DNA of 64,000 bases from Punctularia strigosozonata HHB-11173 SS5 (Eukaryota > Basidiomycota > Agaricomycetes > Corticiales > Punctulariaceae): NCBI RefSeq assembly GCF_000264995.1, contig NW_006767442.1, positions 1,329,314-1,393,313 of the forward strand, in the 5' to 3' direction. The notes under the pieces were generated by a model. It did not search any database. It saw only the letters and a list, made by a program, of their open reading frames with translations, and was not told the DNA's origin. How positions within the stretch are numbered: the first letter of the stretch is position 1; each line of letters opens with the position of its first letter. Positions 1,396 to 22,820 of the stretch are shown here, piece after piece. Made by a program: the position numbers and the translations under genes.

Positions 1396-3524
1396 TCATA
1401 CCCTTGTGAACCAAGCGTCGGCCCTCTCTTGTGCATTCTTGCCCCACCTCTGTCTGTCCGTAGTCTTCCCGACGACCGTGCCGATCAACCCGGCCCCCTC
1501 CACCCTCCCAGTCTCGTCCACGACGAACTCCACTGTCGCATCGCTCTCCGTCTCCCACATCCCGAACGCCGTCTTGTTTGCACCATATCCTTGCGGGAAT
1601 AGTGCGTCCATGGTGATGTTGAACGTGGTGCTGCTGTCCGCGTGCCTAACGAGACGCAAATGGCTGGACCAGAGCCGCGGCCACGCGGCGAGCAATTGAT
1701 TCGCCTTTTGCGAGGACGGCGGTGGGTTCGGCGATGCGGCATCGACCGACTCAAAGTCTTGGTGGACTTCATCGCAGTAGTGGGAAGAGCTCTTCGGGGC
1801 GCAGAGCGTGAAGGATCCGTAACCAGCATTGGTGTATGTCCCGGCGAAGATAGAGAGATCTATGCCCTCGGTCTCGACCTCGGATGAGGCTTCAACAGTA
1901 ACGTTGCGAGGACCCTGACTTCGGTGCACATCGAGCGCAGCTTTGGGGAACGGTCTACGCCATAGTCCGTGAGCACGCTGCAGGAGCCGATCATACATCA
2001 GGATGTGCTCACTCGTCTGCAGTAACCTTCAAAGCAGCTTGCAATATCTCCGTCGCCACGCGCATGGTCGCCAGCGATTTCTCGTCTGCGTTCGCGAGCA
2101 CCGCCAGACCGAGGTTATCGTTAGGGAAGAAGCCAACGAACGTCGATATCCCAGGGATACCGCCCGAGTGCCAGATGAGCTACGGAATCTCTTTCGATTA
2201 GTGATCATCGGGGGATATAGAGAAGGAAACTAACATCGCGTCCCATGTAGTGGTGCCTGAGCCAACCCATGCCGTAGCCTTGGATAGAGAGGTCATTGCT
2301 TTTCGTATAACCGTCTATGATCGCGGATGCCGTTGTTGCGGCTGCAAAGGCGGATTTCGGTATGACAACGACATTTGTATCTGGGTCAACTCCCTCGTTC
2401 ATGAGCATGCGTAACCAGCGTGACTAGAGAAGCGCGGATAAGAGGCGGATCACAAGGGATAGCAGCCTCACAGACCAGATCGGCCGCAGTGGTGATGACA
2501 CCTCCGGCACCGGCGCTAAGCTCCGCGATTTTCTTGCGTTCGAACCACCTAGGGATCCTTCGCCCATACTTGTTCCAGCTGTCGGAGAAGCGGCCGGTCT
2601 TAGCAGCCTGGTCCTGCGAGAACATGCTGTCGCTCATGTTTAACGGCTTGAAGACGCGTTCGACGACGAACTGCTCGTATGGCATGCCGGAGTACTTCGA
2701 TATGATGTAGGAGCCAACCATATACATCTGCACAAGGAATCAGCACCAACGAGTTTGGGGTAAACAAAGGAAGTTGACTGAGATCATACTTGATTATTGT
2801 ACGACCAGGTATGCCGGAGCTCGAAAGCGGCCCTGAGATCCTTCAGTCGGGAAACAACGTCCTTCGTGGTGTCTTCTGGACCATAGGAATAGTCGTGACC
2901 GGAAACCAAGCAATCATATCAGCCCTGCTTGCGAACGCCTACGAGCGTCGCCAACGTACCGCGGAAGACCAGAGACGTGGGACAGGATATCGCGTATGTT
3001 GGCCTTCTCCGTCGCCCACTCATCTTCGAGTTCCCATTCGCCCGGCAAGACAGCTTTCACTTTTGTTTCCCAGTCGAATAATCTGACGGAGGACGGGAGT
3101 GCTGTCGCGTTTCTCCCGGATGCAAAGTCGTCGATCAATATGCCCATAGATGCGGAAAGGAATGCCTTGGAGCACGATGCGATAGTGAATAACGTCTATG
3201 ATGATCAGGGCAAGGGGACCCATTAGACTGCATCGTTCAACGCCAGCATCGTAGACTCACATCGGGCTCCATATCATCGCCCTGCTCCGTTCGAATGCCC
3301 CATGCACCGAGCTCCACTTCCCCATCGGGCCGCACAACAGCAACTGAGATCCCAGAGATAGTCTCATTAGCCAGAACCTCCTGCACGAACGAACCAAATC
3401 TCTCGTCGATGATCTTGCTCTCGCTCGGAGTATCGAGAACAAGCGGCTGCTGTGTAGTCCCATACACGCCGGCGAAGTGAGGGACCACGCTCAGCAACAG
3501 CGCAAACCGAGCAACGTGAAGCAT
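1396..3524 (-). CDS. Serine beta-lactamase-like hydrolase, tandem copy 1
   Basis: Serine hydrolase of the beta-lactamase/transpeptidase-like family (penicillin-binding fold, Pfam Beta-lactamase), about 600 residues over several exons. The start at 3524 gives a signal peptide (MLHVARFALLLSVVPHFAGVYG-like), so the protein is predicted secreted. The catalytic SxxK is SCSK (IASCSKAF, near 3165), YxN is YNN (near 2800), and the KTG-equivalent is HSG (WHSGGIPG, near 2150). A C-terminal beta-rich domain (1396 to about 1890) carries GTYTNAGYGSFTLC followed by SSHYC. Exon 1 ends at 3261 (EPD) and exon 2 starts near 3195. Related fungal proteins act as esterases or peptidases, but the substrate here is unknown. 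It is the most diverged of the four copies. Confidence 0.85.
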
Positions 3525-4009
3525 CCGGCGTGCGCGAGTCGACGAGTGGTATGAGCAACTCAATTTGAGCGAGCACCAGCCGCGGAAATAGTGCGTTATC
3601 AAATGTATTTAGCCTGCGCCGTATGGACGCTGGAGTCAAAACCGCAGAGTCGCAGCTCTGGCGACTAAATTGTGGGAGCGAACATGAACGAACCGAACCG
3701 GGACAACAATTCAATCTTTCGTGCCACCGCCGTACAACCTTCGCTTCCTGACAGTTGCCTTCTCAGCCTTACTGCGCTGTGCCAATGTGATCGATGATCT
3801 TGACGCTACGTCGCAATATCGTATTTTCGTGCATATTGACTTTGTCAGGATGGGAATATTGATTCACAAGGCTAGAGCGACTGAAACGATATTACAGAGG
3901 GAGTCAGGACTTCGAGCGGTCCCGGGTTTTTGGCCAAGAAGTGCGATTGTTGTGCGCATCGAAGAGTATCTGAGCACTGCGATCGATGTCCGTTTTGAAT
4001 TGCCTCCCC
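3525..4009. other. Intergenic, promoter of hydrolase copy 1
   Basis: This stretch separates the start of copy 1 from the stop of copy 2. I see no coding exon, no clear TATA box, and no copy of the GTCA-N8-TGAC block found upstream of copies 3 and 4. Confidence 0.4.
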
Positions 4010-6140
4010 TCACTCGCGACACTGGCACGATCCTCCGGCGCTGGCGTGAGGGCGGCGCCTCTCAGGCACTTTCGCCATCCACGCATCCGCCCGCTCCTGC
4101 ACCGTCCCGCCCGCCCGCATCCTGTTCGTCACCTCTCCTGCCACCCCAAACAGCCCGAATCCAATCACCTGACCCTGCAGATTCCGCACAAACTCGGCCG
4201 TCGTCATCCCCTCTCCGAGTTTCATCATCTCGAACGGCGATGTGTCCTTGCCGTAGCCTTGCGGGTACAGGGTCGTGAAGCGGACGTCGAACACGTTCTC
4301 GTTGTCGGAATGCTGGGTGAAGCGGATGTGGCTGGACCATACGCGAGCCGAGGCGGCGAGGAGCTGCGGCGTGTCCCCCAACGACCCGTCGACGGTCGAG
4401 AAATTGGATATCACATCGTGACAGTACGACGACGAGCTTCCCGGAGCACAGAGGTTGAAAGTGCCATAGCCTGGATCGGAGTACGTTCCCGCCAGATCCA
4501 TGAGGGATATCGCCTGAGCGCGTCCTGCCGTCCGCGACTGCATAGGCATAGAGGCGGTGCTGTCTTCAGGGTCAGTTTGCCTGGAGCTTACTGATGAGGA
4601 AACCCTAGTGCGAGACTATTGTTGGACGTACCCGTCTGTCAGTTGCCCAACTATCGAAGTTATAATCTGCCCTCCTATCGCGATCGTGGCGTCAGACTTG
4701 TTGTCAGCATTCGCGAGCACGACGACAGCTGTGTTGATCTCGGGGAAAAGGGCAGCGAGTGCCGATACGCCTGGGATTGCACCAGCATGCCATATCATCT
4801 TCGTGACAGCTCAGTATAAAATAATTCTGAAAGCGATGAAGAACCTACATCCATTCCGTAGAACGTGTTCCTCATCCAGCCGAGACCGTAAACCATGACC
4901 GGGGCGATTTGGAATCCGGGGAGAGCTGGAATAATGGACGCCGGCGAGGTCACGGCATCGTACGTCGACTGAGGGAGGATCCTCTTGTTTGTGACCGGAT
5001 CGACTCCTTGGTGCAAGAACATTTGCAGCCATCGCGACTGATCGGATTCGACTGAGCGTCCGGGCTTTCGTGTAATAAAGAGACGAATGCTTACCAGGTC
5101 CGCCACGTTCGTGATGCAACCGCCGCCACCGGCGCTGATGGGCGCAATCTGGTCGTCGATCGCGTGGGGGATGCGTCGGCCGGAGGTCTCGAAAGACTGC
5201 GAGAACTTCCCTGTTGCTTCCGCATTCTTCGGCGAGTAGGTGCTGTCCTGCATCCCAAGCGGCTTGAATATGCGCTCGGTAACGAAATCCTCGTAGGACA
5301 TTCCAGAGTATTTCTTGATGATGTGCGTTCCGGTCATGTACATCTAGTGAACGAGTTAATTAGGAAGGGCATTTTAGCAGCATTCACATGCACTGTACGT
5401 GCCATGTTACTGTACAACCAGGAGTGCCGAAGTCCCGTCGACGTCCTGAGATGGCGAAGACGAGCGACGATATCCGGGGGCGATTCCTCCCGGAAATGCG
5501 ATTGGGAGTGACTAATGAAAAGGTAAATTCAGAACGGCATACTTACGATGACGAGGGAGAATATGCAGCTTACTCCGGAAGTCCAGTGGAATGGGACAGC
5601 AGGTCGCGCACATTGGTACCGTTTTCGGAGCATGCGTTATCGAGCCCCCAGTCCTCGGGCAGGAGCGCATCGATCTTCGTTTCCAAGTCGAACACCTCGA
5701 TCGACGGTGGCAGCGAGGTAACGTTCGTCCCTTTGGCAAAGTCATCCATCAGGATGCCCATCGAGGCCGACACGAACGCTTTCGACACCGAGGCAACAGC
5801 CATGAGAGTCTGCGAAGAGAGAAGTAAACGGGAAAAGGTGCTTTAGCATCGTTGGCCCCGATCGTATTGACATCGAACTTACGTCGGGGGTGAAGGCATC
5901 ACCACTTTCAGTGCGCTCGCCCCAGCCACCGGTTTCGATAACGCCGTCCGGGCGGACGATGCCCACCGAGAGCCCGTGGATAGTGTGGTTCACAAGCATT
6001 TCCTCGATATATTTCCCAAAATTGTCATCGATCACCGGAAAACCGACCTGCATGGGTTGCTGCGAGCGGAATTCGGCACGAGCGACCGCGACGGCACAGA
6101 GGAGAGTCCATCCTGCAGTTTTCTTCCTGAAGCTGAACAT
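4010..6140 (-). CDS. Serine beta-lactamase-like hydrolase, tandem copy 2
   Basis: Second paralogue with the same exon layout. I chose the start at 6140 (MFSFRKKTAGWTLLCAVAVA) because it begins a signal peptide and aligns with copy 3; a TATA-like ATATTTAAAG lies about 50 bp upstream. Catalytic motifs are SVSK (ASVSKAFVSASMG, near 5775), YSN (WLYSNM, near 5410) and HAG (WHAGAIPG, near 4790). The C-terminal domain carries GTYSDPGYGTFNLC and SSSYC, matching copies 1 and 3, and ends in a short polar extension (HASAGGSCQCRE). Predicted to be secreted and catalytically competent. Substrate unknown. Confidence 0.87.
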
Positions 6141-8781
6141 CTGATGAGTGTAGGCGAGGATGTGCTGGGCTGGAAGGCGAGCAAAGGCCGACTTTAAATA
6201 TCCCAGAGGTTGAGCCATGACCCGACCAAGCTCCATGAGCCACAGTCGAATCCCCAAAACCATCTCTTCGCTCTTCGTCTCTGGACGGCGTGGCGTGCGC
6301 ATGACGCGGGGAAAGAACGCGGCCGTTGTTGTGCGCCGCGGGGCGCGCGCATGGATAACGCTGAATGGAAGCCAGGTTGACGCGCTTTCCGATAGCTGGC
6401 CTCGACTCAGGCGTCAGCATCTCTTAGAGAAGGAATAGAATATGGGGGTGACAGGAGAGTGACCGGATACGCTTCCTCCAGCGAGCGTACATTAGTGAAC
6501 AGAGCGCTGAGGTTACTTCTTTCGAAGAGCCGTATCGTTTCCGGTGCGGGGTTTGGTAGGCCATACTTCGTGGAGCTACCCCGATTTGATCCCGCTCAAG
6601 CCCGGTGCGGGAGGTATCGATCTAGTTCTAGCATAAGGACGACGCAACGAGGACGACAAACGATTGTAGAGCGTACCTCTAGGACAATCGCTGACCGGAA
6701 TGAGTGACAAGCAACCACGCCACAACGATTCGCGTTCTTTCCCAAACGTTAAAGAAAGCCATGGAGGCTCGGTATAGCGGCTGACTGACGTCGCCACTGT
6801 AGAGAGAAGACGTGCAGCGGCCGCTAAGGAAGGCGCGGGCCAGTATAATACGTTCAGAAAGGGAAGGGGAGCGAAGAAGCGGCCGCTGCAAACTGTGATT
6901 TGCACGGCCTGCGAGTATATGGACGCGATGTAGACGAGTTGGAACACAGCGAAGACGAGGGTGTGCAGCGCTTCTGACTGCGAAAGTCGTCAACAAAATC
7001 CCCTAATCACAAACAAAATGGATCGATCGAGAAGTAACGGCAAGTGGCGGAGCGTCCTGAGACGGTCAAGGCTGTGATGACGGCCTCGATTATGGATGTG
7101 GGAATATGATAATCCGTGTACGGGTAGATACCCAGTTCATGAACACGCACGATGAGCAAGATCAAAACTAGACGCATATTTCAGCATGAACCTCCATGTA
7201 TATGTGCTTTGACTACTGACCAGATCAGCCGCAGCGATATCCCTCACAGCTAAAGGTCGGGTGTGCTGACCTTCACCAACCGGTACGGCTGCCGCAATGT
7301 TCTCCAGCCAGTCGTTTTCCAAAGGTTCGAGCAGCGAGTACATGCCTTCCGTCCAACCTCGAGCGCGATAAGTACGAGGAGGCGCGTACTCGACCACAGA
7401 ACAAGACTCGACAAAACGCAGGCCTGACGTCGCATCCGTCCGTCGAGGCATCCACCGAGAAAAACCGTTGGTTGCATCATACAAACATGTCAGCAAGGGG
7501 GACCGCCAGTTCAGTCTCGACTTCGCGAGCAATTGATCAAAACCGCGTAATCTCGGACCCCTGCGAAGTAAGAACCATGCATCGACAAGTGTGTCATAGT
7601 CCTTGAAAGTCGTGGTGCGATTCAAGCGAGCACAGTCACATTTGGTCGGATGCCAACGAGTCGTGTCGATTCTGGCAGTGGCAGGGAAAAGACACTGGAC
7701 AGAGAGAGAAAGAGATAATGCACGTGATGCGTCAATGAGGGGCGCTCCGAGCTGCTCCGAGTCCGAATCAGGCTAGATCTCTTCCTCGTTTGACCTCGTT
7801 GCAGGAGTTGCACAGCTGCACTAGCGACAATTGATTTCTGCGGATCTGCCTGAAATCCCACATTGAAACGAGAGGTGTCGCATTGTTGCGCTTCGTTCCT
7901 GTCGTTCGACCCGCATATGGTATTCATTTTGCATGAAGACAGAGACCCACCGACCGCGTGCCCTACACGTCTTTCGGCATCTAACTCTGAGTTAAAAGGA
8001 TAAAATACCATCAAGACATCTTTCTTTTCTCTACTTGTGCATCTACAACTACCCTTACCCGCTTGAGCACCCAGACGCGCCCCCTGAATCAGCCCTGTGA
8101 TTCGAATAAGAGATCTTTGGGACAACATCTGGAAAACGACAACACGACATGAAGACAGAACCTCGTTGGAACTCATAACTACTTCTCCAAAATTGACTTG
8201 GACCGGAAGGATGCCGTTAAAGCGCGCATAAAGGCTTCGATGCCTCCAATGTATAAACAGCAACATACATTCCCTCTGAATGATTACAGCAAGTGCTGTC
8301 GATGAGCCGTAGCAGTCAGTTTTTCCTTTTCCTTCCACTGAGATGCATGCTTGGTTTCTGTTACAGAATTCCAAGGATTCCTCTCCTGCACGGCAGGCTT
8401 ACAGATTGGGTGGATCAACAGGATTCCCAGCGGATTGACTGCCTCAGGCCTCATCCTGACCGCTTTCGCCCCGTCTTCGCCCCGTCTCTCGTTCCTCTTG
8501 TTCAGTATTCATTATAACATCACCGCATCGCGTATTCTACCTAAGCATATATTGTCGCGTCAGCTTGTTCGTCCGAGTTACTGTTCCCGACGATGTCGGT
8601 TTTTTTTCACGCATCCGAGCCCTCAATATACACACTCCCTTCCTATCTAATTTGACCAACAAATGAGCCAAGAATTTATCCCTGCTATCGTTACATTTGA
8701 TCGCTCCGTATATATGTCGCTATTCATGTCCGATGTCCAACCATAGCGTTTGGGCACTATGACCTTGCCGTGTGGTCCCGT
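6141..8781. other. Gap inside the hydrolase array
   Basis: A 2.6 kb gap between copies 2 and 3, much longer than the other spacers. It contains the TATA-like element of copy 2 at 6191-6203 and long minus-strand open frames at 7137-7625 and 7622-8374 with no recognised domain. The first of these may hold a decayed hydrolase fragment (listed separately). I see no transposase and no terminal repeats. Confidence 0.4.
7180..7480 (-). pseudogene. Possible decayed fragment of a hydrolase copy
   Basis: The minus-strand frame reads DIAAADL directly before a GTCAGT donor-like sequence near 7222. In all four intact copies the conserved (I)TTAADL block sits exactly at an exon end before a GT donor. About 25 codons upstream is a weak IAAAVPVGEG stretch where the intact copies have (V/I)AELCAGGGG. 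No active-site motif is left. The match is short, so the call is tentative; the alternative is an unrelated spurious frame. Confidence 0.25.
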
Positions 8782-10919
8782 CTATAGCTCCTCGTGCGCC
8801 ACTGCACGATCCCTGTGCTCCTTGACGAACCATGCGTCTGCCCTTTCCTGCACCGTCTTCCCCGTCCTCATCCGCTCTGTCGCGCCTCCCGTCGCCCCGA
8901 ACAAGCCAAACCCAATGACCTCCCCCTTGACTTCGTCTATCACGAACTCGGCCGTGATCTGACCCCTGCCCATGTTGACCGTCTCGAACGGCGTTGCGTC
9001 CGCACCGTACCCGCGCGGGTACAGGTTCGTAAAGTGCACATTAAACTTGCCGGGTTTCCCAGTACGCGGAACGAGACGGATATGGTCCGACCATACGCGG
9101 TCGGTGGCCCCGAGCAGCTGCGACCCACGATCAGACGCGTTCTTGGAAACCGCGTCCACGACCGCAAAGTCCGCTGCGACAGCGCCGCAGTAGTCAGAAT
9201 CGCTCTCGGCCGCGCAGAGGTCGAACGTTCCGTAACCCGGATCCGTGTATCTCCCTGCGAACTGTACGAGAGATTCCGTCACCGGCGTGCGTTCTGTCTC
9301 TGTCGGCTCCTTCTTCGGCTTCTGAGCGGGTGTGGCGTCTCCCTGTTTAGCACTTCATTCGTCATGTCAGGCACCGCAGCTTCTCCGCGATACGGCGGAG
9401 ATAACTTACTCGTCCAGCGGCTGCCTGAGTATCGCTTTCACTACTCGGGCCCCGATGCGCAATGCCGACGTTGACTTGCTGTCGGCGTTGGCGAGGATGA
9501 CGACTCCGGCGTTGATTTGAGGGAAGAAGGACACGAGCGCGGACACGCCCGGGATAGCACCGGCGTGCCATATCATCTGCATGTCGTATGAGTGGAATGA
9601 TGGACCAAACAATAATCAATTACGAACATCAAGGCCGCTGTACGAGTTCCTGAGCCAGCCTAGGCCATAATTCAGCACCGGCACTTCCATGAACCCAGGG
9701 AGAGCTGGAACAATGGAAGTCGGCGCGATCACGGCATCGTAGACCGACTTCGGCAAGACCGTGGTGTTCGTATCGGGGTTAACTCCCTGATGGAGGAACA
9801 TACGCAACCATTGCGCCTGCCAGGAAGTTGTGAGTGCTCCTGCATCGGAACGTGACCCTCGATGAAGGGTGCGCTCACCAAGTCCGCCGCGGTAGTGATC
9901 GTGCCTCCTCCCCCTGCACAAATGTCTGCAATCTCGTCGTTGATCAGACGCGGGATGCGCCGGCCATGGCTCGTGAAGGACTGCGAGAATCGTCCCGTCT
10001 TTTCTGCCTGCGAAGGCGAGTAGGTGCTGTCCTTCATTCCGAGCGGCTTGAATATCCGCTCGGAGACGAAGTCCTCGTACGACATTCCCGAGTACTTGGC
10101 GATGATGTGCGTTCCGGTCATGTACATCTAGGTTCGGAAGTAAAAAATGGTGAGCGGAAGTATCCAGCACGCCGAACAGTACCATCAACGCACTACATTG
10201 CTATACAACCAACTGTGCCGAATACCCGACGTAGACCTTAGATGCTTCATACGAGCAATGATATCCTTGGGCGTCTCACTGCGGGTGTGAGAGTGGGGAT
10301 GGCTGTCAACGGTACCAGATCAGACTACCGTCCCATCATGGAAACGCAACACAAGTAGCGTACTCGGGCATTCCGGTGTGATGGGCAAATAAGTCGCGCA
10401 AATTGACGCCGTCGGTCGCACACCGATCGTCGAGCTCCCACTCATCGGGCAAGAGTGCTGTGAGCTTGGTATCCCAGTCGAAGACCTCGATAGACGCAGG
10501 AAGCGCCGTCACGTTCGTCCCTTTCGCAAAATCATCCATCATGATACCCATTGCGGCAGGTACGAACGCCTTCGACACCGACGCAACAGCTGTCAGAGTC
10601 TAACGCAAGAATTCGCGAATACAGGGGCACATGAGCGCCAATCCGGGAATACGTCTGGGCCGGGACTTACTGTGTCTTCAAAAGGATCGCCTGCTTCTGT
10701 ACGGATGCCCCAGCCTCCAAGCTCAACACCGCCATCCGGACGAATAACGGCCATCGAAATGCCAGGGATGGTATCGCTCGCCAGAACTCCTTCCACGAAC
10801 GTCCCAAATGCGGAGTCGAGGACGGGCGCATAGTCATTCAGCGGCTTCTGCGTCGTGTTGGCGCTCACGATTATGCTCCAGAGCAAAACCCAGCCTGCGC
10901 GACCTTTAGGCGGATACAT
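8782..10919 (-). CDS. Serine beta-lactamase-like hydrolase, tandem copy 3
   Basis: Third paralogue. It starts at 10919 with a signal peptide (MYPPKGRAGWVLLWSIIVSA). The catalytic motifs are SVSK (in the exon 10336-10578), YSN (WLYSNVV, near 10205) and HAG (WHAGAIPGVSALVSFFP, near 9560). The C-terminal domain has GRYTDPGYGTFDLC with a second cysteine in SDYC. Exon ends fall at the same positions as in copies 2 and 4. Upstream lie a TATA-like TACTTCAAGA near 11000 and the GTCA-N8-TGAC block. Predicted to be secreted and active; function otherwise unknown. Confidence 0.87.
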
Positions 10920-11605
10920 CGTAGCAGTAGTAGTGACCGGCCCTAGATCCAGTCTCCAAGGAGGCTCGCTGTCGAGAAAGCGACGTGGAGGTCAGTTCTT
11001 GAAGTAGTCTGGGGTCCAGGGCTTCGCCCCGGGTCGTCAAATCACCATGACAAGCCTGCATTGCAGAACGCGCCGTGGTAGCCTGACCGCGGGCGCGCGC
11101 GCTAGTAACGCGGGGAGGAAGCGGGGGAAGCGTGCGAACGTTCTCATCCATCGAGGATCCGGACGTGCGGCCCGGGCCGACCTACCCAATGGGATAGCGG
11201 CAAGACGGCGGCTGGTACGCAACCTGACCTTGGTCTCGTTGACTCGTGGAGAAGGGTCTCGGAACCAAACGCACGAAACCGGTAAACGCGATTTCAATCA
11301 GATCGTTCACAATGAGTTTGCCAAACTGTTGAAGCGATCCGCGTACTCCTGCTGGATACACTTCGATCATACGACACGTTGGTGGCATTACGGTTCGATG
11401 CATGATGCATTCTCGACACGAAGGAACTGATCATGCGCGTTGATATGCACGAGGAACCTGCCCCGAACCCTAACATGTCGGACTGAAGCTGCCCAGTGGG
11501 GCATATGCTCGCCCTGTTCTGGCAGTCCAAGCCATTCTTTGCAACCGGATCACGCAATCCCCCTTGTCCGATCGCGCCGCTGGGACGGAAAGGATTCACT
11601 TACAG
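10920..11605. other. Intergenic between hydrolase copies 3 and 4
   Basis: This is the promoter region of copy 3. Blocks similar to the copy 4 promoter include the GTCA-N8-TGAC block, a GAACRTTCSCACGC block near 11130 and a TACTTCAAGA element near 11000. There are no coding exons that I can support. Confidence 0.5.
11036..11051 (-). promoter_or_regulatory. Conserved promoter block of hydrolase copy 3
   Basis: The plus strand reads GTCAAATCACCATGAC, about 120 bp upstream of the copy 3 start. The ends GTCA and TGAC form an inverted pair around 8 bases. The same 16 bp with one change lies upstream of copy 4. The layout suits a dimeric regulator, which is inference. Confidence 0.45.
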
Positions 11606-13720
11606 CTACTCGTGCGCTTCGACCCGGGGCCCACGCTCCCTCACGAACCACACGTCCGCCCTCTCCCACACCGTCTTCCCTGTCCTCATCCTCTCCGTCT
11701 TCCCTCCCGCCACGCCAAACATCCCGAATCCCAACACCTCGCCCTCCTCGTCCATCACAAACTCGGCCGTGGCCTGCGCGCCGGGCCCGAGCTGCGCCGT
11801 CGTCTCGAACGGCGTCGCGTCCGCCCCGTACCCCCGCGGGTACAGCATCGTGAACCGGACGTCGAACGTGTCTGCGCGATCGGCGCGCGGGACAAAGCGG
11901 ACGTGGCTCGAGAACACGCGGTTCCAGGCGGCGAGGAGCTGCGGCCCCGCCGAATCCCCCTTCGCTGCATCCACGCTCGCGAAATCAGCTATCACAGCAT
12001 CGCTGTAGCGCGAAGCACTCTCGGAGGCGCGTAGGTTTAAAGTTCCGTATCCGGGATCGGAGTAAATACCCGCGAGATGTGCGAGAGAAGGCGCCATCGC
12101 CGGAGCGCTTGATGCAGCAGGAGGCGGCACGCCCACGGATCTGTGAGCGGCAGGGCTAGCTCCTTGTTCGCCAGCTTCGGTACTAGAGCGCATGCGTCTA
12201 TCAAACATCTTGAGCGCGCGGGGAAATCGACTTACTCCTGGAGAGGTTGTTTGAGTACGGACTTCAGGATACGCATCCCAACCCGCACTGTGGCCGACGT
12301 GGTGTTGTCCGCATTTGCAAGGACTACTACTCCGGCCTTGACCTGCGGGAAGAATGCTGCGAGAGCTGATACGCCCGGAATAGCGCCAGCGTGCCATATC
12401 ATCTGCGCCAGCACTGAATGACGTGGAAGCTCAACAGGCGACGAATAACCTACATCTAAGCCTTCCAACGAGTTCCTGATCCATCCCAGACCGTAGTTCA
12501 TGATGGGTACTTGTATGAACCCAGGAAGACCCCGGACGATGGAAGCCGGCGCGATCGCGACGTCATAGACAGACTTCGGGAGCACCGTCTCGTTCGTGAC
12601 CGGATCCACCCCTTGGTGTAACCACATTCGCACCCATCGCGCCTTACGATGAATCCTTGTCAGAATCCATACATGAATCGATCTCATTGAACTCTCACCA
12701 TGTCGGCGGAGGTGGTGATCACACCACCGCCACCCGCGCAGAGCTCCGCGACCTGGTCATCTATAAAGTGTGGGATACGTCGGCCGGATCTGGTCCAGGA
12801 ATGGGAGAACCGGCCGGTGCTTTCCGCTCGGGAAGGTGAATATGTGGTGTCTTTCATTCCGAGGGGCTTGAATATACGATCGGCGACGAAGTCCTGATAT
12901 GTCATGCCAGAGTACTTCGAGATTATGTACGTCCCCGTCATGTACATCTACAGGAAGAAGTGAAATGAGTTGCTTCTTCAACTGCGGAGGGGTGCATACC
13001 ATGTTGTTGTACAACCACGACTGGCGAATTCCAGATGTCGACCGAAGATGTTTGAAACGAGCGATGATGTCCTGAGGCATATCGTCGCGACCATGCGAGT
13101 GCGTATGACTGTCGAAAGCATCTGCGATTAAAGCAATCCATTATACTCGAGGGGGGCGACGTCCACGTACTCTGACAGGCCAGTATGATGGGCGAATATG
13201 TCGCGCAAGTTGATCCCTTCGGTCGCACAATGATCTTGTAGCTCCCACTCGTCAGGCAAAAGCTCTTTGATCTTCGTGTCCCAGTCCAGAACCTCGATAG
13301 AGGGAGGGAGCGACGTAACGTTCTTCCCTTTTGCAAAGTCGTCTATCATGATACCCATCGCGGCTGGTACGAACGCCTTAGACACGGATGCGACAGCTAC
13401 CAAGGTCTATCACAGGTACGCGAAGGATGGAATGAGCGAAGGACCCGGAAGCATCAGATCGAAGGGGAACTTACATCGGTTTCGAAGGGGTCACCCTCTT
13501 CCGTTCGAACACCCCAGGCCCCGAGCTCGATCCCGCCGTCCGGGCACACCACGGCGACGGAGAGGCCAGGTATAGCGTCGTGTGCGAGAATGCCTTCTAC
13601 GAACGACTTGAAGGCCGCGTCGACAACCGGCGCGGCGTCGCTCTTCATAGGCTCCTGCGGCGCGAAAGCACCTTGATCGGGCGTAGCACAACTCTTGAGT
13701 CCTTCCTTCGCTGCTGACAT
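11606..13720 (-). CDS. Serine beta-lactamase-like hydrolase, tandem copy 4, probably not secreted
   Basis: Fourth paralogue, closest to copy 3. The catalytic set is intact: SVSK (ASVSKAFVPAAMG, near 13385), YNN (WLYNNM, near 13010) and HAG (WHAGAIPG, near 12390). The start at 13720 (MSAAKEGLKSCATPDQGAFA) has no hydrophobic stretch. The sequence just upstream matches the 5' leader and TATA region of copy 2, so a missing signal-peptide exon is unlikely. In the C-terminal domain the two cysteines kept in copies 1-3 are changed: GYGTLNLRASESASRYS has Arg and Ser, each explained by one base change (TGC to CGC, TGC to AGC). The protein is therefore predicted to be intracellular with an intact active site. 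Confidence 0.87.
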
Positions 13721-14254
13721 CCGTGTCGGGCTAAGTCTGGAGAATCTTGCTGAGGAGAAGCCGGCCAGCACGCTCTTGAAGTATCCTGCCTCAGGCCACA
13801 GAGCTGTATTCGTTCCGCCCCGGCAGTCAAATCATCATGACCCATCGCGCCGTTTGCGCAGCTGCATTGCGCGCCGGACGTCTGTCGAAGCGGGGGTGGA
13901 AGCAAATGCTAGCGTGGGAATGTTCGTTCGTGCTCGGCCCGGGCCGAGAGCGTACCAGGGAGGAAGTTAGGTTGCTACGTATTGTTGGCGGCGTTGAATT
14001 GGAACTTCAATCCCCGGAAGCGCAGGAAGAAGGTGCAGAGAACACACGACTCTAGATCGGCACTAGGTTGTTCAGGTACATACAACGAGGCAGTTGCTAC
14101 AACAGTACGGGTGTTTCTCGGCGAACGGACGGAGTTCAACGTAAGTGAGTGTCTAGGGAGGGTATCGATTTCATTTTTGTAGGGGCGCGAAGTCATGACC
14201 GGTCAGCCGGTCGCACACTCCGACGCGAACCGGGTCACAGCTCAGCGCCAAGTG
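13721..14254. other. Intergenic between hydrolase array and glucoamylase
   Basis: Holds the promoter of copy 4 and the 3' flank of the glucoamylase gene; both lie on the minus strand. No coding exon is supported. Confidence 0.45.
13826..13841 (-). promoter_or_regulatory. Conserved promoter block of hydrolase copy 4
   Basis: The plus strand reads GTCAAATCATCATGAC, about 105 bp upstream of the copy 4 start. It is the one-mismatch partner of the block upstream of copy 3. A TATA-like GATACTTCAAGAG lies between it and the ATG, near 13775. Confidence 0.45.
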
Positions 14255-16688
<2,434 letters not shown>

Positions 16689-21867: not shown

Positions 21868-22820
21868 TCAAACACTCATCTTCATCGCGATACTAGGATG
21901 GGGATCGTACCCTACCACCTCGAGGTCCTCCGCCACGAACTCATCGATGTCGTTCACCTCCCTCTTCCATTTCAACTTCGGGAACGCGCGTGGCTCGCGC
22001 TCGAGCTGCTTCTGCAACGCCTCAACGTGGTCCTTGTAAACGTGCGCGTCGCCGAGCTGGATGATCAATTCGTGCGCTTCGGTCCCTGTGACTTGCGCGA
22101 CCATATGCGTAAGGAGGGCGTAGGACGCGATGTTGAACGGAATGCCGAGGCCGAGGTCGGCAGAGCGCTGGTACATGAGACAGGACAATCTCGGTTTCTC
22201 GGAAGGCGCGGAAGGGAGGTGCACGTAGAATTGGCACATCATGTGACAGGGAGGTAACGCCATTTGCGGGATGTCTATATCCAGCGCGTTAGACTTGGAT
22301 AAACACGCATGGAGGAACGGCACGTACCCCTCGGATTCCACGCGCTTAGGATAATCCGGCGATCTGTGGGATCCTCCTTGATTTTGCGTATACATTCCTT
22401 CAGCTGGTCGACGCCCTCCCCGGTATAGTCCTTATCGCAGTCGGTGTACTCGGCACCAAAGTGCCTCCATTGGAACCCGTATACGGGACCCAGGTCTCCT
22501 TCTCGCCGATGGCCCAAGCCACGTTTCTCCAAAAACTCCTTGCTCCCGTTACCATCCCATATCTTCACGCCCTTCTCCGAGAGCAGCTTCGAGTCGGTCG
22601 AGCCCCGTATAAACCAAAGAAGTTCGAGAAGTATGCCACGTAAGAAAGTTCGTTTCGTGGTCAGGAGAGGTAGAGTGTTGTAGGCGAGAGAGAAACGAAG
22701 CGGATTCGGCGCGAAGATGGAAAGGGTGCCAGTGCCGGTACGGTCGGCTCGGGACTCCCCAGTCGCGATGACGCGTCGAATAAGATCCAGATACTGATAC
22801 TCTTCGTGTGCTTTCGACAT
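21868..22820 (-). CDS. Thymidylate synthase
   Basis: Converts dUMP to dTMP using methylene-tetrahydrofolate; essential for DNA synthesis. The product is 299 residues, a normal length. Signatures in order: [77 protein letters not shown], the catalytic cysteine in [46 protein letters not shown] and the C-terminal [11 protein letters not shown]. One 53-nt intron (donor GTACGT, branch CTAAC) splits NPR from DIPQM. Divergent from the NTF2-like gene with about 250 bp between. Confidence 0.96.

Follow-up and report, generated by a model that had tools for sequence, protein, structure and literature searches.

A fungal PF00144 serine hydrolase paralogue without secretory signal or conserved cysteine pair: a candidate for relocation to the cytosol

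Serine-based lactamases (the SBL set) of Fusarium belong to the PF00144 family, and a table in the text covered sets in bold the accessions with signal peptides, implying that the others are devoid of them; the same text names LovD as a fungal PF00144 acyltransferase (PMC5610705). For the CubicO peptidase family, the characteristic motifs YAEAF/L, FFYLN and ERY have been described, and the D-aminopeptidase 1ei5 is named among the S12 structures (PMC2651629, in the text covered). Relocalisation of gene duplicates by divergence of a signal peptide is established in yeast, according to the parts of two studies considered here (PMC2397506; PMC3879971).

The window, i.e., the whole stretch of 64,000 nucleotides analysed from Punctularia strigosozonata HHB-11173 SS5, includes four neighbouring, beta-lactamase-like PF00144 genes in a row on the minus strand (1396-13720), termed copies 1-4 here (Table 1). 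Gene models were built with a spliced-alignment script guided by copy 4, and starts and stops were set by hand. All four models have seven exons and encode 589-592 residues without internal stops. Five of the six intron positions are at the identical alignment column and phase across the four copies; intron 2 is common to copies 2-4, and in copy 1 is modelled eight columns later in another phase. The introns are 50-73 nt long and 23 of the 24 are GT-AG, the exception being intron 3 of copy 2 (GC-AG). An AAG acceptor is used in 3/24, including intron 4 of copy 4, in which all six introns are GT-AG. As dS between copies is 1.17 or more, the array is considered to be old. A glycoside hydrolase family 15 gene of the glucoamylase type adjoins the array (15223-15735 and 15885-16331, minus strand; PF00723 matches in both open frames tested), and the C-terminal part of a thymidylate synthase is encoded at 21871-22395 on the minus strand (PF00303, 5.7e-53).

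Table 1. Positions in the window of the four array genes and of features in and around copy 4.
Feature	Positions	Strand	Remarks
Copy 1	1396..3524	-	591 aa; signal-peptide-like start; C457/C466; most diverged; SCSK and HSG variants
Copy 2	4010..6140	-	592 aa; signal-peptide-like start; C447/C456
Copy 3	8782..10919	-	589 aa; signal-peptide-like start; C446/C455; C-terminal HEEL
Copy 4 (coding and introns)	11606..13720	-	spliced model; 590 aa; ATG at 13720, TAG ending 11606
Copy 4 exons	13720-13475, 13406-13171, 13108-13000, 12947-12699, 12642-12454, 12402-12236, 12182-11606	-
Copy 4 N-terminus MSAAKEGLKSCATPDQGAFAPQEP	13649..13720	-	occupies the signal-peptide place of copies 1-3; placed by flanks
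SVSK of copy 4 (S89-K92)	13377..13388	-	nucleophile Ser and Lys
YNN of copy 4 (Y194-N196)	13003..13011	-
HAG of copy 4 (H347-G349)	12385..12393	-
CGC codon, R450 of copy 4	12029..12031	-	Cys in copies 1-3
AGC codon, S459 of copy 4	12002..12004	-	Cys in copies 1-3
Stop TAG of copy 4	11606..11608	-	aligned by eye with Glu codon of the final EL in copy 3
TACTTCAAGA block	13774..13783	-	counterpart upstream of copy 3 at 11006-10997; 10/10 bases, E 1.1 alone

PF00144 is matched by all four proteins (E-value up to 0.001), with copy 3 scoring 143.2 bits against a cut-off of 27. The class C beta-lactamase model NF033085 also matches all four (best E-value 1.8e-17), but copy 3 reaches only 51.4 bits, below the cut-off of 415. 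SxxK, YxN and HxG, which mark S12-type serine hydrolases, are present in this order in copy 4, and the original prediction that SVSK, YNN and HAG are intact in this copy is confirmed; across copies 1-4 the motifs read SCSK/SVSK/SVSK/SVSK, YNN/YSN/YSN/YNN and HSG/HAG/HAG/HAG. The best PDB sequence match of the four-copy profile is Pab87 (2qmi; 6.7e-20), and none of the CubicO C-terminal motifs listed above is held by any of the four proteins. A search for relatives in a collection of viral contigs revealed none in 22 and 50 stretches, and that in genome contigs one bacterial relative (L001) among 52 stretches. Judged from its sequence, copy 4 is an old, intact paralogue, a serine hydrolase from a fungus with the PF00144 (S12/beta-lactamase) fold, and it would retain catalytic activity. 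In copy 1, SCSK (3166-3177, minus strand) places a Cys beside the nucleophile, and HSG is found from 2168-2170 onwards on the same strand; with these variants and many private columns, copy 1 may act on a different substrate.

The presence of leaders was judged by Kyte-Doolittle hydrophobicity in 11-residue windows. The best means N-terminal to the Asp conserved in the mature part are 2.28, 1.99 and 2.16 in copies 1, 2 and 3, versus 0.02 in copy 4, in which residues 1-25 have a net charge of -1. When window starts at residues 1-35 are considered instead, the mean in copy 4 is 1.19 at residue 35, inside the conserved mature part. Values of 2.0-2.2 are also reached inside the mature part (at 541 in copy 2 and at 49 in copy 4), and so the figure matters only by its place at the start. 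The stretch from the ATG to the end of the QEP codons is 72 nt in copy 4, and that to QKP is 78 nt in copy 3. This place and length, rather than likeness of the middle, suggest that the N-terminus of copy 4 is the old leader turned polar. The absence of a secretory signal from copy 4, as originally claimed, is thus well supported by its hydrophobicity profile.

The second claim, that a conserved cysteine pair is replaced by Arg and Ser in copy 4, also holds: for copies 1-4, columns 465 and 474 of the alignment are C/C/C/R and C/C/C/S, and in both columns the codons TGC/TGT/TGC of copies 1-3 face CGC and AGC in copy 4, a single base change away from TGC in either case. Of the 217 columns that are common to the other three copies, copy 4 differs at 26, and the chance that both Cys columns are among these 26 is 0.014, in a test chosen post hoc; the same counts for copies 1, 2 and 3 are 87/278, 33/224 and 14/205. 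The joint loss, a single event, is in itself weak evidence that the two cysteines are paired. A search of the literature turned up no paper on this cysteine-pair loss.

The pair is located in the last exon, which encodes a separate C-terminal domain with sub-threshold matches to DUF3471 (PF11954): 20.0, 13.2, 13.7 and 16.7 bits in copies 1, 2, 3 and 4, all below the gathering score of 29.3, versus 62.7 bits in L001. Structure prediction was performed on last-exon pieces only. The predicted structure for copy 3 has a mean pLDDT of 33; in a second prediction, with the linker trimmed, copy 2 placed first and L001 added, the best model has a pLDDT of 58 and a pTM of 0.58 (the other four, pLDDT 37-45), with block means of 69 and 60 for residues 21-40. 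In this pLDDT-58 model, the first Cys (fragment residue 21) ends a strand (16-21) and the second (30) is near the start of a helix (28-36), a strand-loop-helix placement that is compatible with a disulfide in copy 2. A putative disulfide would join the two C-terminal cysteines of copies 1-3. L001 aligns at 23% identity and lacks the stretch carrying the second Cys. A Foldseek search with the last-exon model yielded 117 matches, none with E 0.001 or below; the second-ranked is 1ei5 (E 1.2, probability 0.30), which is not significant. Sequence matches of the copy 1 domain in the PDB were two de novo designs (E 0.15 and 0.19), taken as chance.

The best reading of these features, and a fairly probable one, is that copy 4 is a constrained enzyme that was relocated to the cytosol. 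The signal-peptide stretch would have turned polar, so that the protein would cease to enter the ER and would in all likelihood remain cytosolic. In the cytosol the C-terminal disulfide would be useless, and both cysteines would have been lost as a pair, with the Ser-Lys-Tyr catalytic apparatus kept. Signal loss presumably came first and cysteine loss after, from a leader that is presumably ancestral.

The polarity of this change depends on where the tree is rooted. Copies 3 and 4 are the closest (65.5% identity), and a four-point distance bootstrap joins them in 951 of 1000 replicates. Characters barely favour the two as sisters (17 vs 14 vs 14), leaving the tree node open, which counts against relocation. 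The deepest row is copy 1 by midpoint rooting only, as the branch of L001 is too long for rooting. With a root next to copy 1, a position supported by the midpoint only, the simplest reading is loss in copy 4, whatever the order of copies 2-4. A comparison covering four copies of one array in one species also counts against relocation.

Traces of a reducing compartment in copy 4 are mixed. C11 and C59 are private to copy 4 at their columns, bringing its Cys total to four, equal to copy 3, and three N-glycosylation sequons are present versus 1.34 (sd 1.07) expected by composition, i.e., no depletion; both features weigh against relocation. Of the sequon columns, one is common to all four copies, one to copies 3 and 4, and one to copies 2 and 4. 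Glycosylation would not preserve sequons in a protein long resident in the cytosol, though they may be kept for structural reasons. The original proposal of a move to a reducing compartment thus stands as far as the secretory signal is absent from a gene that looks constrained, and is qualified by the gained cysteines and the retained sequons.

Early-stage decay of copy 4, in which the signal peptide was lost by relaxed constraint with no selected intracellular role, would also predict the loss of both the targeting signal and the likely disulfide. Changes specific to copy 3 and to copy 4 number 46 vs 56 with copy 1 as outgroup, 53 vs 55 with copy 2, and 14 vs 26 where both outgroups agree; the last of these, with more unique changes in copy 4, accords with decay. 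Taken together, these counts reveal no clear acceleration of copy 4 against copy 3, and the idea of neofunctionalisation in the array, which had been put forward with the relocation, finds no backing in them. Nei-Gojobori estimates for copy 4 versus copy 3 are dN 0.245 and dS 1.38, the latter near saturation, giving a dN/dS of about 0.18. The gene looks constrained by this measure, and 590 codons stay open with six usable introns despite synonymous divergence above 1. Also, the three catalytic motifs are all kept. Decay is unlikely against this background, though not far-fetched, and relocation of a constrained enzyme remains preferred.

A further possibility is that copy 4 is still targeted, with a near-cognate upstream start or a 5' exon supplying a mitochondrial-type presequence. 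The copy 4 frame is open upstream of the ATG (13831-13721, minus strand), with the first in-frame stop at 13834, and includes the near-cognate codons GTG at 13771 and CTG at 13768 and 13801. The upstream open frame reads as a basic, serine-rich stretch resembling a mitochondrial presequence. Two one-intron models give presequence-like starts, one of them MQLRKRRDGVLAGFSSARF; both require the non-consensus donor GTCATG. Either this weak donor or a near-cognate start would add a presequence-like stretch to copy 4, contrary to cytosolic residence. The stretch overlaps the TACTTCAAGA block, which is common to the DNA upstream of copy 3, and thus is better explained as DNA of the promoter or 5' leader; targeting of this type is considered improbable.

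An upstream exon encoding a signal peptide, on the presence of which the relocation idea would fall, was searched for with no-intron and one-intron models. In the relaxed search, which allowed any GT donor and any AG acceptor up to 14260, none of the 24 models of copy 4 has a hydrophobic start (leader mean 1.9 or more), whereas the same search on the leader-bearing copies 1, 2 and 3 gives 9/18, 18/133 and 6/44; strict enumeration for copy 4 gives two models, neither hydrophobic. Shuffled upstream DNA rarely yields a hydrophobic start (1/30 relaxed, 1/60 strict), and the search therefore points to the absence of such an exon rather than to its removal.

Five short co-linear blocks are common to the upstream regions of copies 3 and 4: TCGGCCCGGGCCG, CCCCCGCTTC, GCAATGCAG, GTCATGxTGATTTGAC and TACTTCAAGA, with E 0.002 to 3.7 each. 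In copy 4, four of them are closer to the ATG than in copy 3 and one is 5 nt further from it; TACTTCAAGA starts 63 nt before the ATG of copy 4 and 87 nt before that of copy 3. This spacing suggests that nothing exon-sized is inserted in front of copy 4, provided that transcription does not begin further upstream. Between TACTTCAAGA and the ATG, 70 of 2000 shuffles match the likeness of copies 3 and 4. A GC-rich palindrome, TCGGCCCGGGCCGA, is also found upstream of copy 3 (11167-11180, one mismatch) and copy 4 (13934-13947), and the window has no further occurrence when up to two mismatches are allowed; 9/100 shuffles also give two or more occurrences. It is a possible shared regulatory site, as far as its sequence and placement suggest.

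The C-terminus bears on the compartment from which copy 4 may have departed. Copy 3 ends AHEEL (HEEL at 8785-8796, minus strand), and copy 4 ends HE, with a stop two codons earlier (11606-11620). The 3' ends read CAC GAG TAG CTG TAA in copy 4, CAC GAG GAG CTA TAG in copy 3 and CGC GAG TGA in copy 2. Comparison with copy 3 suggests a new stop in copy 4, and the Glu-stop end of copy 2 suggests the opposite direction. For human proteins of the FKBP family, HDEL or HEEL is named as the retrieval signal, in the text covered (PMC8248988). As copy 3 combines HEEL with a signal-peptide-like start, it may reside in the ER rather than outside the cell. The extracellular ancestry assumed in the original prediction is accordingly doubtful for copy 3, and an ER-luminal ancestor is possible.

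A more detailed version of relocation can be built on this ending: the lineage of copies 3 and 4 would have been ER-luminal, with signal peptide, disulfide and HEEL, and copy 4 would have lost all three, by a compensated frameshift, by Cys to Arg/Ser changes and by a stop removing EL, moving a constrained hydrolase from the ER lumen to the cytosol. The frameshift step comes from the DNA alignment of copies 3 and 4, in which a 26-27 nt block of the hydrophobic core is shifted by one frame under 4/5 gap settings while its flanks stay in frame; the loosest setting breaks the block up. In simulations of in-frame decay with this loosest setting left out (change rates 0.35, 0.45, 0.55 and 0.65; 400 each), such a block arose in 0, 1, 7 and 21 of 400 and an equal score gain in 0, 1, 6 and 41 of 400, respectively; the observed codon-only score (-2.0) falls between the simulated rates 0.55 and 0.65. 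Allowing free gaps improves the alignment of copies 2 and 3, the control pair, to almost the same extent (block 7-15 nt). A compensated frameshift in the leader core of copy 4 is weakly suggested by these alignments.

With the conserved ends (ATG and CGCAG-AGCC) included, only 2/2000 shuffles are as good as the leader DNA likeness of copies 3 and 4. Without them, 345/2000 do as well, i.e., no likeness beyond chance, and the same test gives 111/2000 for copies 2 and 4 and 205/2000 for copies 2 and 3, which both bear leaders and serve as control. As likeness is at chance without the conserved ends, the frameshift step is weakened, and the three-step ER-luminal version as a whole is distinctly improbable. 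The simpler relocation stated above does not include this step.

The same out-of-frame block would also be expected if an error in the gene model or assembly, with indels near the start, hid a working signal peptide of copy 4. Two compensating errors would be required, and the nearly equal help that free gaps give to the control pair speaks against them. In all frames, moreover, the DNA of this region resembles the copy 1 and copy 2 leaders no more than shuffles do (517 and 734 of 1000), and the copy 3 leader only weakly (89/1000) and in yet another frame. An error of this kind is very improbable. Just upstream of the copy 4 ATG, in another frame, RAGRLLLSKIL was compared with RAGWVLLWSII of copy 3 as a possible signal-peptide relic and was treated as chance, with 89/1000 shuffles for copy 3 and values for copies 1 and 2 that are not unusual.

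Leaderless secretion of copy 4, with copies 1-3 in the ER or secreted, could account for the sequon column kept in all four copies and the second one common to copies 3 and 4, but is an uncommon route to which nothing in the present data points, and as the Cys pair is missing only from the leaderless copy, it can hardly be credited.

Relocation of copy 4 to the cytosol can be compared with the systems introduced above. Like the array, the Fusarium SBL set combines a PF00144 domain bearing SxxK with large paralogous families in fungi; unlike the array, it is from Ascomycota, and a C-terminal cysteine pair is undiscussed in the text covered (PMC5610705). Pab87 shares SxxK, YxN and HxG and the order of domains, with the catalytic one first and a second one at the C-terminus, but differs in its CubicO motifs, in the lipocalin barrel of its second domain and in being an archaeal octamer (PMC2651629, in the text covered). 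The fold of the array's C-terminal domain, by contrast, is unproven. In the yeast relocalised duplicates, as in copy 4, an N-terminal targeting peptide is lost or changed in one paralogue; localisation was measured in the yeast cases described in the text covered (PMC2397506; PMC3879971), whereas for copy 4 it is deduced, with the paired loss of a likely disulfide as an added trace.

By hydrophobicity, a targeting signal is present in the paralogues and absent from copy 4. LovD works inside the cell, and in this it resembles the location proposed for copy 4, both being fungal PF00144 enzymes; unlike copy 4, LovD is an enzyme of a biosynthetic cluster and is not itself a tandem paralogue of leader-bearing genes. 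If the location is true, the adaptation of a secretory enzyme to the cytosol could be tested compactly in this one array, with nearly the same gene structure and the same active site and with a targeting signal and a likely disulfide lost together, and the array would caution against reading every fungal PF00144 array as secreted lactamases. The divergence of copy 4 would be a further case of the known targeting-peptide relocalisation of duplicates, rather than a new kind of system.
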